The position numbers and the translations under genes are program-made. A DNA stretch of 64,000 nucleotides from Magnetococcales bacterium (GTDB lineage: Bacteria; Pseudomonadota; Magnetococcia; Magnetococcales; UBA8363), in the NCBI GenBank assembly GCA_015228815.1, contig JADGCV010000013.1:1-64000 (forward strand). The letters run 5' to 3'. Below the pieces are notes generated by a model. It saw only the letters and a list, made by a program, of their open reading frames with translations. It made no database searches and was not told the DNA's origin. How positions within the stretch are numbered: the stretch's first letter is position 1; each line of letters opens with the position of its first letter. Positions 20,624-38,727 of this stretch are shown here, in pieces.

Positions 20624-21736
20624 TCAAAGCCCCGAGTCGCCCATGTTGCGGCTACCATAGACCCCCGGATCGGCCACCGGTTCACAGCCCCTGGGGGGCA
20701 GATAGTAGCCTGTCAGGTCCGGGAGGGGAATCGTCAGGCCAATCCCCTGACACACGGAAGCCAGAAGAGGATGATAATGGGGAACGCGAAGGACACGAAT
20801 GCCGCGCCGCGCCGCATGATCCGCGGCAAAATCCAGGAGCGGAATCAGGTTCTTCCTTTCCGGCGGCGCGGACCAGAGATCCTGAGCCAGATAATGCTCG
20901 GAATCGGGCCAATCGTTTGTCCTGCGACGGGTAAACAGACCAAAGGCCAACAGTTCCTCGCCCCGTTGGTGGGCCAGAAGGTCGATGGTCCCACCAACGG
21001 GGTTGCCGTGCAGATACCACTCCAGGTCACGGGCCGCCCGCACGTTGGTCAGCGAAAAGTTGTGTCGCGTCCGTTGCCACAATCGATCAAATTCGGGACC
21101 GATGGTCGTGACACGCAACCGTTTGCCCGCGCCCCTGGATCCCATGCCCAAACGCCATCGATGTTGCACATACCGTTCCAAGGCCCGCCCCGCTCCCTGC
21201 CATCGACCATTGTTCATGATTTCCGGGCACCAATGGCCATGGATTCGCAAAACATCCTTCATTCCTTGCCAATACGTCGTTGCCGACGCGGGACGGATCA
21301 ACAGAGTCTGTGTCGTCATGGCGCGGGAAAAATGAACGAAAGGAACCCGTTGCAACATGAGTTCCACTTCCCGGGTCGGGGTGGTGTTGAACAGAGGATA
21401 GTCCTGGGCCTGGGTCATCAGGAACACAAACATGCGCATGCTGTGACTGCGCCATTCGGGAAGGACGCGCCAGCAGGACATGTTGGCCGCCAATCGTTCC
21501 TCCCCGTTCCACTGCACCCGGGTGGGAATCAAGGCAAACAGTCCGCCCACGTTTCCCGCCGCGTCAAGCAGGCATCCCCTGGGAAAACCAGAGGTGAAGG
21601 CAGGGTTGTCCTCCCACCAGAAACGAAAGCGCCGCAACCAGAATTCAACCGGACGCAACTCCCCGGGAAAGGCCGCGCAAAACCGAGCGAGCCTGAGACT
21701 GTCATCGGCCATGATGGGACGGAGGAGATCCTTCAT
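20624..21736 (-). CDS. GNAT-fold acyltransferase-like protein
   Basis: About 370 residues; ATG at 21736 is preferred, with GTG at 21745 as an alternative. The N-terminal half (RPIMADDSLRLARFCAAFPGEL... then GCLLDAAGNVGGLFALIPTRV, and ANMSCWRVLPEWRSHSMRMFVFLM) has the strand-turn-helix order of the GNAT acyl-CoA fold. A second, similar half follows after FDRLWQRTRHNFSLT. Proteins of this double-GNAT type occur with exopolysaccharide and peptidoglycan-peptide genes. It is last in the ribosomal-protein/obg/proB operon and faces the coiled-coil gene tail to tail. The assignment is moderate. Confidence 0.55.
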   Translation of the reverse strand: MKDLLRPIMADDSLRLARFCAAFPGELRPVEFWLRRFRFWWEDNPAFTSGFPRGCLLDAAGNVGGLFALIPTRVQWNGEERLAANMSCWRVLPEWRSHSMRMFVFLMTQAQDYPLFNTTPTREVELMLQRVPFVHFSRAMTTQTLLIRPASATTYWQGMKDVLRIHGHWCPEIMNNGRWQGAGRALERYVQHRWRLGMGSRGAGKRLRVTTIGPEFDRLWQRTRHNFSLTNVRAARDLEWYLHGNPVGGTIDLLAHQRGEELLAFGLFTRRRTNDWPDSEHYLAQDLWSAPPERKNLIPLLDFAADHAARRGIRVLRVPHYHPLLASVCQGIGLTIPLPDLTGYYLPPRGCEPVADPGVYGSRNMGDSGL

Positions 21737-21773
21737 GGGAGTCACTTCATGCCTGAATCAACGATCGCCACAT

Positions 21774-28758: not shown

Positions 28759-29211
28759 TCAACGTTTGGCGTCAAGGCGATAGAGCAGCCAATCATGGAG
28801 CGGGGAAAATCCATGTGCCTGGTAAAATGAACGGGCGGCTTCATTCCACGACAGCACGTTGACATCCAGGCGACAACACCCTTTTTCCAGGGCCAATCGT
28901 GTGACTTCCGCAAGCATCGCCTTGCCGATGCCACGGCCACGCATCCCGGCGTTCACATGAAAATCGTGGACGGTCAACGTTGGCGCTCCGGCCCAACTGG
29001 AATAGGCGTGCAGCAGGGTCACCATGCCGTGAACAATCCCATCCTCTTCCGCCAGCAATACCGTAAGAGGCGCATTTTCCCTGAAAAAATCCCGGCGGAC
29101 GACCTCTTCGGTCACAGCCACGGTCTCCAGGGAACGCTCGAATTCGGCAAGTCGGCGAATCATCGCGACGATCACGGCGGCATCCTCGATTGTGGCGGGC
29201 CGAATGTTCAC
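28759..29211 (-). CDS. GNAT family N-acetyltransferase
   Basis: 150 residues from a GTG at 29211 that overlaps the FIST gene stop (GTGA), giving the typical opening NIRPATIEDAAVIVAMI; an ATG at 29241 would add ten residues inside FIST. The acetyl-CoA loop is VNAGMRGRGIGKAML, followed by VLSWNEAARSFYQAHGF. Residues around LTVHDFHVNAG resemble the diamine (spermidine-type) acetyltransferases, so a polyamine or similar amine is a possible substrate. The 3' end abuts the conserved flank of the heptad-repeat cassette. Confidence 0.88.
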   Translation of the reverse strand: MNIRPATIEDAAVIVAMIRRLAEFERSLETVAVTEEVVRRDFFRENAPLTVLLAEEDGIVHGMVTLLHAYSSWAGAPTLTVHDFHVNAGMRGRGIGKAMLAEVTRLALEKGCCRLDVNVLSWNEAARSFYQAHGFSPLHDWLLYRLDAKR

Positions 29212-30416
29212 GCCTGCCTCGACGGGGCGGTAAACAAGCACAAGACACTGGTAAAACCATGAAGACAGGTTTTTCCATGAATGGGGCCGATTTCGCCATT
29301 GCAGAAAAATCCCCCCATGGGGACGGAACCGAGTTTTTCCTGGAATATCCGGGCGTCATGGTGGGAAAGACCGAAAAAATCACGGCCACGACCCAGGCAG
29401 GTGAACATGAGGGCACCGGCGGGGAAAGGACGATCCTTGAAGTTGAATACATGCCGATCAATAAGCGTTTCCAACTCAAGATGCGCCGCCAAGGGATCCC
29501 GCAGATGAAACTGCACCGCCTGATAGGGATGAAGATGGCCGTTGATGGCCAGATGACCATTCTCCGGTTCGCCGCCCTTGATGCGTCGAATGAGAAAATC
29601 ACCCTGTTGCAAGGTATTTCCCTCGGGAGTCACGGCAATTCCAAGGGTCAGGGCATGCTGAAACAATTCCTGGTCCGGTTCGGACAATTCATTGAAAATC
29701 TGGCGCAAAACATCGATCGGATTTTGATTGTCGAGCGAAAGAATCAGATGTTTCCGACTCGCGGTGACAAAATAGGGTTGGCCTATGGGACGGCACCCCG
29801 GACTGACGATGGTATCGATCCGAATGGCCCCGGCCAGACAAACCCCCGCCAATCCCGATTGATAAATGCCATCATCAACCAACAGAAAATGATCGCCCCC
29901 CTTTTGCCCACCGCTGACGTGTCCGCCAACCTTGATCCCATCGGGGAATTCATCGTCCAGGACCTCAAGAAAGTTTTCCGTGTTGAACGTGAACGGATCG
30001 GAAAGGAGAATGAAATGAGGCGTTGCGCCAGAAATGGCCCCATGCGGCAATCCCAGGGCATCGACAACCCCGCGGGCATCGGCAAAGGCCCGTGGAACGA
30101 TGTGAAATGGATGAAGGATGACATCGGGCAGGTGGGCCAGGGTGATGGAAACCGCCTTCTTCCGCTCCAGCTCCATACCCTGGCCAACGACACCGCCACA
30201 CGAACAGCCAATCCAGTGTTGCGGCTTGAGACACGTCGGAATCAGGCGTGACAGGGCAGTGACCTCCTCTCGCGCATAGCCGCTGAAGAAAAGAAGCGCC
30301 AAATGCGGCTGCGTACCGGAGAACCGACGGGAAAAATATTGCGCCGCATCCGCCATTCCCTGTTCGATGCCCCCCGCGACCGAATCATCGGTGAGAACCC
30401 AGGTTTCCCATTTCAT
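29208..30416 (-). CDS. FIST-domain sensor protein
   Basis: 402 residues from ATG at 30416 with a GGGAGA site. The N-terminal FIST half contains LALLFFSGYAREEV, IGCSCGGVVGQGMELERKKAVSI and FADARGVVDALG. The FIST-C half contains VGGHVSGGQKGGDHFLLVDDG, GLAGVCLAGAIRIDTIVSPGCRPIG and MFTCLGRGRDFFG...PMGGFFCNGEIGP. FIST is a predicted small-ligand (perhaps amino-acid) sensor, usually fused to or partnered with signalling proteins. Here it stands alone. It is translationally linked to the GNAT gene, which suggests a shared metabolite. Confidence 0.9.
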   Translation of the reverse strand: MKWETWVLTDDSVAGGIEQGMADAAQYFSRRFSGTQPHLALLFFSGYAREEVTALSRLIPTCLKPQHWIGCSCGGVVGQGMELERKKAVSITLAHLPDVILHPFHIVPRAFADARGVVDALGLPHGAISGATPHFILLSDPFTFNTENFLEVLDDEFPDGIKVGGHVSGGQKGGDHFLLVDDGIYQSGLAGVCLAGAIRIDTIVSPGCRPIGQPYFVTASRKHLILSLDNQNPIDVLRQIFNELSEPDQELFQHALTLGIAVTPEGNTLQQGDFLIRRIKGGEPENGHLAINGHLHPYQAVQFHLRDPLAAHLELETLIDRHVFNFKDRPFPAGALMFTCLGRGRDFFGLSHHDARIFQEKLGSVPMGGFFCNGEIGPIHGKTCLHGFTSVLCLFTAPSRQA

Positions 30417-36414: not shown

Positions 36415-36666
36415 TCAGCCTCCTTTTTTTGCCTGGATCAACGCGATCAAATCGCCAACCTCGGCCACCGAAACGAGTTCGGCCAAGCTGAACCGAATGT
36501 CGAATTCCTGTTCCGTCGCGGTGATCAGGGCCATGTGACTGATGCTGTCCCAGGAGGGAATGTCCTCCATGCGGGTTGTTTCGGTGAGTTTGAGGGTATC
36601 ATCGCCGAAGGCCTGCCGGAACATGGGCTGGAGGCGATGCAACAACGATTCGATGGACATGTCCAT
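36415..36666 (-). CDS. Acyl-carrier-protein-like carrier domain
   Basis: 83 residues. It is helical with the phosphopantetheine attachment region PSWDSISHMALITATEQEFDIRF; the Ser of DSI is the expected modified residue. The start is ATG at 36666 or 36660 (GGAG fits the second better). It lies 40 bases after the stop of the synthetase-like ligase and is most likely the carrier that the ligase loads with an amino acid. It is not the housekeeping fatty-acid AcpP, because the sequence lacks the acidic DSLDTVE form and there are no fab genes. Confidence 0.9.
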   Translation of the reverse strand: MDMSIESLLHRLQPMFRQAFGDDTLKLTETTRMEDIPSWDSISHMALITATEQEFDIRFSLAELVSVAEVGDLIALIQAKKGG

Positions 36667-36705
36667 GGACTCCGGGAAAAGGGAACAATGGTCACAGGCG
36701 CGGGA

Positions 36706-37917
36706 TCAACGTGACGATCGACCTTCCATGTCGTGGGTTCCCGCGCGCACCTGTGCCGGCCAATGATCGGGATTGATGCCAAATTGGGCCAGAAAGGCGA
36801 AGGCCAGCCGTTCCAGGCCCAGACCGATGCAACCGGAGTGGGCCGGACTGCCATCGGCCAGTGAAATTTCGACGCCACGGCCAAAAAAGTCGATATGATA
36901 ATTGCGCGAGCCGATACTCAAGGTTTCATTCTTGAACGGCAGGAGTGCGCGGTATTCATATTTCAACTCGTAGATCTGTTGGAAACCCGATTGGCTGCCG
37001 AATTCCCGGATGAAGAACGGATCGTTGGCGTTTTCGAGGCGATAGGCCAGTCCAAGTTCCTGAAGAAACGCGCTTGTTTTTTGCCCGGCTCCGGTCAGCA
37101 GCTCTTTCACCTCCCGGCTGGAACCGACGAAAATCACCTCCCACATGGTAAAGTTCCATAACCGTTCCAGAGAGTGCATGTTGATGGATTCATAACGGAA
37201 ACAATTTCCATGAGCGGTGGCGATCATGGGTTTTTCTCCCAGGGTTCGACCCGAGAGCATTAAATAGAAGTTGTGACAGACCGTCGGCGAAAGAAGGTTT
37301 TGCACTCTGGAGAAGGAGCCATGCGGTTGAAACAGTGTATTCTCGGTGCAGCGGGTTTCGCGGGCGAATCGTTCGATGATGTCCAGGTCTTCCTTGAGAT
37401 GGGCGACGAATCCCAACGAATGGGGAAAATTTTTGAAATAGTGAATTTTTTCCAGGAACCTCGCCGGGATCATGGCGGGAAAACGATACACCTGTCCGCC
37501 CACGGACATTCCCAGGGCGAACAATCGTTCCTCGAAGTACCGGCACAGAGAGGCAACCCTCGGTCCCAGGGAATACATTCCATCACCCGTTTGAAAAACG
37601 TGTCCGCCATCCATCAGTGCGCCCATGGGGTCCTGGGCATGACGAAGCGGCTGGTCCATTCGATCTTCAAGAATCTTGACCGGAGGTTCGCGGGTGGTCG
37701 TCACCAGGAGGGTCAGGGTTCGTTGCACCTTGTCCAGCAGGGACAGCCGTTCCTGGTCCTCGGGGGTCCGCCGCAGTCGGAAGAGCAGGGTGTCACCGTC
37801 ATGCCAACGGACATGCGCCACCAGAGGATCCACATAGGCCAGTTTGGCGATGATCTCCTGTTTCAGGAATCGGGGGACCGTGATGGCGGGCTGAATGATA
37901 CATGTCGGTTCGGACAT
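36706..37917 (-). CDS. Amino acid:[carrier protein] ligase-like class II synthetase homologue
   Basis: 403 residues with an AGGAGA ribosome site. The class II synthetase core is recognisable: a motif 2-like CFRYESINMHSLERLWNFTMWEVIFVGS and a motif 3-like SGCIGLGLERLAFAFL with the invariant Gly-x-Gly-x-Glu-Arg. No tRNA-binding arm is seen. This matches the atypical seryl-tRNA-synthetase homologues that activate small amino acids and transfer them to the phosphopantetheine of a dedicated carrier protein. The adjoining carrier gene supports that strongly. Amino acid identity (Gly or Ala are known for the family) cannot be told by eye. The product's fate is unknown. Confidence 0.82.
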   Translation of the reverse strand: MSEPTCIIQPAITVPRFLKQEIIAKLAYVDPLVAHVRWHDGDTLLFRLRRTPEDQERLSLLDKVQRTLTLLVTTTREPPVKILEDRMDQPLRHAQDPMGALMDGGHVFQTGDGMYSLGPRVASLCRYFEERLFALGMSVGGQVYRFPAMIPARFLEKIHYFKNFPHSLGFVAHLKEDLDIIERFARETRCTENTLFQPHGSFSRVQNLLSPTVCHNFYLMLSGRTLGEKPMIATAHGNCFRYESINMHSLERLWNFTMWEVIFVGSSREVKELLTGAGQKTSAFLQELGLAYRLENANDPFFIREFGSQSGFQQIYELKYEYRALLPFKNETLSIGSRNYHIDFFGRGVEISLADGSPAHSGCIGLGLERLAFAFLAQFGINPDHWPAQVRAGTHDMEGRSSR

Positions 37918-38342
37918 GGGGCTTCTCCTTGAGAATCTGTTTTCAGTAGGGTCCGGGCGTATCCAAGCAGGTCATCGAGATGGGTGGTGATGATGGCGAT
38001 GGTGATGGGGAGTTGCAGGGTCTGGTAGTCGTGTACCGCGATGTTGCGGAAACCCACCATGGGTTTGAGTTTCCCGGCCATTTCCCGGGTAATCCATCCG
38101 CCTCTGGCCAGCAGTTCGAACACATCCCGCGCCCCCTGGGGAACGCCCAGCCGTTCCCGTCGTACCAAATGCTGTCCCAGGTCCAGGGCTGCCTCGCAGG
38201 CGCGTTGTATGTTCAGGATGGCGGCATCCTGGCGGGTGAAGTCGCTGGCGAAGGTTTCGGGATGTTTGGCATATTCCTCGCGGGCGCGGGCGACCGCACG
38301 TTCGATGAGGGCGGCCTTGTTGATCAACACCTCATCGACCAT
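37863..38342 (-). CDS. hepT: HepT-type (DUF86) toxin ribonuclease
   Basis: 159 residues with the HEPN Rx4HxY active-site motif RNIAVHDY (about residues 101-108) and the family context GVPQGARDVFELLARGGWI and AGKLKPMVGFRN. HepT cleaves RNA and is silenced when its partner MntA adenylylates the motif tyrosine. The gene starts 11 bases inside the end of mntA. Its last 18 codons overlap the start of the carrier-protein ligase, so the C-terminal tail (NRHVSFSPPSRSPDS) is beyond the usual family end. Confidence 0.9.
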   Translation of the reverse strand: MVDEVLINKAALIERAVARAREEYAKHPETFASDFTRQDAAILNIQRACEAALDLGQHLVRRERLGVPQGARDVFELLARGGWITREMAGKLKPMVGFRNIAVHDYQTLQLPITIAIITTHLDDLLGYARTLLKTDSQGEAPCPNRHVSFSPPSRSPDS

Positions 38343-38727
38343 GGATGGTTCCTTCCCGTTGGATGATGGCCATGAGCGGGGCGCGGGCCTCGTCCAGGGC
38401 GGTTTTTTCGCTGAGAATGAAACTTTCGTAGAGGAGGGCGCGATGGTCTTTGGTCCAGATCCTCTGGCCGGTGGTGATGATGTGGTACTGCATCACCGTG
38501 CTGGCGGCGCGCAGATCCAGAAGATCGACCGGACAGCCGGCAATGTCGGCCAGTTCGCCCGCCAGTCGCCACAGAATCACCGCATCGAGCTTGCCCATGA
38601 CCAGTATCCCCAGGTCAAGGTCGCTCTCCGGACCGGCGTCGCCACGGATACGGCTGCCGAAGGCATACAGCGCCAGCAGTTCCGGAAGGCAACTCCTCAG
38701 ACATTCGATCAAGCGGGTCCAGTCCAT
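38332..38727 (-). CDS. mntA: MntA-type nucleotidyltransferase antitoxin
   Basis: 131 residues from ATG at 38727. The minimal nucleotidyltransferase motif GSx10DxD is present as GSRIRGDAGPESDLD (about residues 24-38). WRLAGELADIAGCPVDLLDLR supplies the next strand and Asp. MntA protects cells by AMPylating HepT. The gene order antitoxin then toxin, with overlapping ends, is typical. A longer upstream frame has composition unlike protein and is not used. Confidence 0.9.
   Translation of the reverse strand: MDWTRLIECLRSCLPELLALYAFGSRIRGDAGPESDLDLGILVMGKLDAVILWRLAGELADIAGCPVDLLDLRAASTVMQYHIITTGQRIWTKDHRALLYESFILSEKTALDEARAPLMAIIQREGTIHGR

Follow-up and report, generated by a model that had tools for sequence, protein, structure and literature searches.

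A GNAT-fold protein is linked by synteny and co-occurrence to an N-terminally extended amino acid:[carrier protein] ligase of the Magnetococcales

The closest described relative of the ligase analyzed here is Bll0957 of Bradyrhizobium (PDB 3mey and 4h2s), a structurally solved glycine:[carrier protein] ligase that binds zinc through Cys131, Glu176 and Cys279. For the short-form system, Iyer et al. 2010 predicted that an amino acid is attached, by way of Atu2574, to an amino sugar at the cell surface (PMC2922099). The GNAT-fold proteins MprF, FemX and VlmA move an aminoacyl group that is supplied by an aminoacyl-tRNA synthetase or by a paralogue of such a synthetase (PMC2922099). Within the GNAT superfamily, catalysis by a C-terminal carboxylate has been described as unique to N-myristoyltransferase, NMT (PMC4964394). 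Here a locus of a Magnetococcales bacterium is compared with these systems; the window is the whole stretch of DNA that was analyzed, 64,000 nucleotides long, and all coordinates refer to it. The ligase gene and its main features are as follows.

36706-37917, minus strand: predicted amino acid:[carrier protein] ligase of an N-terminally extended subfamily, 403 aa, assigned by phmmer, NCBIfam and tree
37648-37917, minus strand: N-terminal region of ~90 residues, not present in Bll0957-type ligases according to the ligase alignment, the alignment with Bll0957 starting at residue 94
37276-37278, minus strand: Cys214 codon, predicted zinc ligand (Bll0957 Cys131), invariant in the 19-sequence ligase alignment and aligned to Bll0957
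37189-37191, minus strand: Glu243 codon, predicted zinc ligand (Bll0957 Glu176), invariant in the 19-sequence ligase alignment
36829-36831, minus strand: Cys363 codon, predicted zinc ligand (Bll0957 Cys279), invariant in the 19-sequence ligase alignment

In the phmmer search the top PDB match of the window ligase was 3mey (E 4e-31, 111 bits; 30% identity, from window residue 94 onwards) and archaeal-type SerRS (aSerRS) scored lower (80 and 73 bits, E 1e-21 and 1e-19); the best match is hence neither a true SerRS nor a HisZ-type protein, either of which the preliminary description had named as fatal to its own assignment, and this check came out in favor of that assignment. The NCBIfam model PRK07080 matches at 1e-44, under its cut-off, and the NCBIfam model of amino acid:ACP ligases, NF005479, gives 152.8 bits against a cut-off of 357, a score so far under the cut-off that the protein is no orthologue in the sense of that model, though it belongs to the wider superfamily. 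The window ligase resembles Bll0957 in its class II synthetase-like core, where CFRYES is motif 2-like and GLGLERLAF motif 3-like, in the zinc triad, in the nearby carrier and, as far as the full domain of aSerRS is concerned, in lacking a tRNA-binding domain; it differs in the ~90 additional N-terminal residues, in subfamily-specific residues such as R338 in place of a phenylalanine, and in belonging to a sister clade. Neither the coiled-coil arm of SerRS nor the complete aSerRS tRNA-binding domain is present, and to this extent the earlier statement that there is no tRNA-binding arm holds; it passed over a ~90-residue N-terminal region, which Bll0957 lacks and which has no family match in Pfam or NCBIfam. 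A derivation of this region from the aSerRS tRNA-binding domain was considered but is not claimed, since the NCBIfam SerRS alignment begins only at residue 62 and the Foldseek match of the whole model does not isolate the domain.

The predicted structure of the ligase is of moderate confidence (pLDDT 82), and Foldseek finds with it both aSerRS and Bll0957, the E-values being slightly better for aSerRS. Residues F301, S337 and N339 of the window ligase align with W396, N435 and S437 of M. barkeri SerRS, the serine-binding residues of that enzyme. A reading of the amino acid from this pocket was abandoned because the alignment shows the residues of the window ligase in M. kandleri SerRS as well, so that they do not discriminate. 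A canonical SerRS (523 bits) is encoded elsewhere in the same genome. An assignment of the window protein as an amino acid:[carrier protein] ligase is supported by its top database match, by the conservation of the zinc site, by its place in the tree and by the separate canonical SerRS. The family named in the preliminary description is thus retained, with the amendment that the protein falls into a separate subfamily, one that misses the cut-off of the curated model (152.8 of 357 bits). Directly upstream of the ligase lies a HepT/MntA toxin-antitoxin pair (37863-38342 and 38332-38727, minus strand), the HepT frame overlapping the ligase start by 55 bases; its membership in the ligase unit was discarded, as the searched loci of relatives yielded no match to HepT.

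The carrier protein is encoded immediately after the ligase.

36415-36666, minus strand: carrier protein, 83 aa, with a DSI serine; best match PDB 2lml (E 2e-16), Pfam PP-binding 20.7 bits
36544-36546, minus strand: Ser41 codon, predicted phosphopantetheine attachment site, invariant in 18 aligned carriers

Both reading frames, the two synthetase-like elements and the DSI serine are located as had been described, and the carrier frame begins 39 bases past the ligase stop codon. Shine-Dalgarno-like sequences precede the ligase (AAGGAG) and the carrier (GGAG), and the carrier contains the motif WDSIS; its Pfam PP-binding score is just under the cut-off of 20.8 bits. An AcpS-type PPTase is encoded in the same genome, on contig C21. 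Fourteen further ligase loci were found in 13 genomes of the same order (45-74% identity). The carrier follows the ligase directly in most of them, with no carrier at L031 and L033 and a carrier of a different type at L040/L041; the pairing of ligase and carrier is far beyond chance.

Besides the Magnetococcales, the groups with extended ligases of ~400 aa are the Chloroflexota, Anaerolineales among them (45-52% identity across the greater part of the protein), and one genome each of the Rhodospirillaceae and the Phycisphaerae. The long forms cluster with only moderate support (93/83) in a maximum-likelihood tree; the short Bll0957 type is separate from them (99/99), and SerRS is split from both types (100/99). 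A short sequence from Blastocatellia (L119) falls among the long forms on a very long branch, its placement being unsure. Judged by its sequence, the window ligase is a member of a sister subfamily of the Bll0957 type and not an orthologue of Bll0957. The acyl-CoA dehydrogenase that neighbours short-form ligases was not found at the window locus. What is new is the subfamily and its partners, the chemistry of the ligase itself not being so.

The preliminary description had noted no transferase next to the ligase and had left the acceptor as a blank. The first statement is literally true in the window but misleading, since relatives of the following protein, of which the window holds one copy, adjoin the ligase in other genomes, and the blank now has a candidate linked by synteny and co-occurrence.

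20624-21745, minus strand: tandem-GNAT protein of 373 aa, a putative transferase and, on the grounds of synteny, co-occurrence and fold, the candidate acceptor enzyme

In the window this gene lies 15 kb from the ligase and adjoins a proB-like gene. A separate single-domain GNAT (28759-29241, minus strand) is encoded beside a FIST-domain protein, and no link between it and the ligase was found. The tandem GNAT has no family match in Pfam or NCBIfam; its distant relatives match GNAT domains. Its AlphaFold model is a tandem GNAT (pLDDT 92), whose best 50 fold matches in the PDB are all NMT, the first of them with E 5e-12, a TM-score of about 0.5 and about 12% identity. The likeness to NMT lies in this fold and in a conserved C-terminal end: GDxGL is near-fixed at the C-terminus of the tandem GNATs, and all 17 Magnetococcales proteins stop exactly 3 residues past the last GD, an arrangement reminiscent of NMT, in which the C-terminal carboxylate is catalytic (PMC4964394). 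By analogy, the tandem GNAT would use its own C-terminal carboxylate as NMT does. It differs in being bacterial, and neither an acyl-CoA nor a protein substrate is implied by the comparison. Sequence homology with NMT is not claimed, given that a profile search of the PDB yielded E 0.0027 with one alignment and only 0.07 with a cleaner one, and the Pfam NMT models gave no match to the GNAT partner up to E 10; the comparison concerns how the protein may work and nothing further.

Both synteny and co-occurrence connect the GNAT-fold protein with the ligase. In eight loci of the same order (L034-L040 and L043) a member of the ~371-aa GNAT cluster adjoins ligase and carrier in convergent orientation, with one small GNAT gene lying in between at L040. 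Co-occurrence was determined over 398 genomes with a profile of 16 Magnetococcales GNATs and no Bradyrhizobium sequences; the first search had used the window protein alone, and the statistic rests on the Magnetococcales-only profile because an iterated profile had absorbed Bradyrhizobium sequences, inflating their E-values. Outside the order a GNAT match was present in 13 of 350 genomes, and the ligase in 12 of these 13 versus 29 of the 350 overall (Fisher p 1e-13), while within the order the GNAT was present in 13 of 14 ligase-positive versus 9 of 34 ligase-negative genomes (p 5e-5); both tests assume independent genomes, an assumption that does not hold, six of the 12 belonging to one genus and three to another. 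As a further likeness to the Bll0957 type, the GNAT also adjoins the ligase in the Bradyrhizobium group, at a distance of 107-187 bp in all six genomes (G040, G114, G160, G334, G364 and G383); it is ~3.6 kb away in G187 and elsewhere in the genome in the remaining out-of-order genomes. The homology between Magnetococcales and Bradyrhizobium GNATs spans the first ~140 residues only. Nine members of the order (G005 and eight others) have the GNAT without the ligase, and in two (G003 and G004) the only GNAT that accompanies the ligase is a distant one (31-32% identity), encoded beside another carrier. Carrier-GNAT gene pairs recur with no ligase nearby (L074-L078), which suggests that carriers in general are partners of this GNAT family.

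The gene contexts of relatives bear on the acceptor. In Chloroflexota the order is SDR, CMP-transferase, NeuB, capsule-synthesis-like protein, methyltransferase, carrier, ligase, GNAT, Antibiotic_NAT, DUF4910, sulfotransferases and glycosyltransferase, the Pfam names being those of L102 and the gene content differing between loci; the Phycisphaerae locus (L113) retains the stretch that runs from the carrier through ligase and GNAT to Antibiotic_NAT. The Chloroflexota GNAT is an ordinary single-domain GNAT that keeps the RxxGxG motif. The layout of the Chloroflexota clusters is that of a nonulosonic-acid glycan pathway, and legionaminic acid with an N-linked D-alanyl group is a known O-antigen sugar (PMC10609480). 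For the Magnetococcales a glycan reading would be carried over by analogy from these other phyla: the Magnetococcales ligase loci have unrelated neighbors and contain no sugar cluster, and neither of the two NeuB genes of this genome (contigs C4 and C32) is near the window ligase. At L042/L107, L044/L112 and L105, ligase and carrier lie beside MBOAT proteins, of which that of L044 matches DltB (TIGR04091) with E 2e-48, under the cut-off; KASIII-like proteins are also found at these loci, together with an SGNH/AlgX-like protein in L105 and DUF1574 in L042. In effect, L042 and L105 are Dlt-like sets with a class II synthetase-like ligase in the place of DltA and an extra KASIII-like protein. The genome of the window itself has a second carrier of the same type as the window carrier (L087, G000:C32:21000-40900), which is accompanied by an FkbH-like protein, a MaoC-like protein and a protein like the MBOATs of L042 and L044 and lies ~5-6 kb from a NeuB gene.

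On balance we favor, with some reserve, a joint reading of these data that runs from ligase to aminoacyl-carrier to GNAT to an amine, probably on an envelope sugar. The ligase would use ATP to activate a small amino acid, which it would load as a thioester onto the phosphopantetheine arm of the carrier, as its family supports; the tandem GNAT (20624-21745) would then accept the aminoacyl group of the carrier and join it to an amine as an amide, as synteny, co-occurrence and fold suggest; and the acceptor, the weakest step, would most likely be an envelope amino sugar or another small amine, to judge from the related clusters. The net result would be an aminoacyl transfer like that of FemX or MprF with a carrier protein in the place of tRNA. 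The difference from MprF, FemX and VlmA is that their donor is an aminoacyl-tRNA and not an aminoacyl-carrier, and no sequence match to these three was found here. The Agrobacterium-type DUF1839 system (Atu2573/Atu2574) is alike in that a ligase loads a carrier and is linked to a putative amide-forming enzyme; its partner consists of DUF1839 and a glycosidase instead of a tandem GNAT. An extended version, which we regard as doubtful, would make the tandem GNAT a bacterial NMT-like enzyme that takes the aminoacyl group from the carrier with its own C-terminal carboxylate as the base, and would make ligase, carrier and GNAT a general tRNA-independent module of aminoacyl transfer for the modification of amino sugars or other amines; such a module would supply the role that has been missing for amino acid:[carrier protein] ligases.

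It is also possible, although it is not the reading we prefer, that ligase and carrier are correctly assigned and the GNAT is unrelated to them, acylating something else while the aminoacyl-carrier feeds a pathway elsewhere, for instance through a ketosynthase or another amide-forming enzyme. The 15 kb between the two genes in the window, which do not form one operon, and the nine same-order genomes with GNAT and no ligase would fit this, as would the KASIII-like, MBOAT or DUF1839 partners that the ligase has in other sublineages; however, adjacency in eight same-order loci and in six Bradyrhizobium-group genomes, and the ligase in 12 of 13 out-of-order genomes with GNAT, argue against it. The MBOAT-type loci raise the prospect of a Dlt-like aminoacylation of an envelope polymer outside the cytoplasm, with the ligase as DltA, the carrier as DltC and MBOAT/SGNH proteins as DltB/DltD. 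The likeness to Dlt lies in the carrier-bound amino acid as the donor for envelope modification and in the MBOAT and SGNH partners of one ligase sublineage (an SGNH/AlgX-like protein at L105, DUF1574 at L042), whereas the fold of DltA, an AMP-forming ligase, is a different one. For the window this explanation is improbable: homologues of DltB/DltD were not found beside its ligase and are present only in the L042, L044 and L105 relatives, no MBOAT was found beside its close orthologues, and the MBOAT-type loci represent a different branch of the ligase subfamily.

A tRNA-charging archaeal-type SerRS, or the decayed remnant of one, would account for the real though weaker aSerRS matches (E 1e-21 and 1e-19) and for the Foldseek E-values. 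It is nevertheless very improbable, as Bll0957 is the better match by sequence (111 versus 80 bits), the tree splits the ligases from SerRS (100/99), the genome has a canonical SerRS, the full aSerRS tRNA-binding domain is absent and a carrier follows the gene.

The recurrent GNAT, together with the nonulosonic-acid and Dlt-like contexts, leads to concrete tests of which enzyme unloads the carrier and of what receives its aminoacyl group. The data presented here support the general idea of Iyer et al. 2010 that an amino acid is placed onto a cell-surface amino sugar, with a different transferase.
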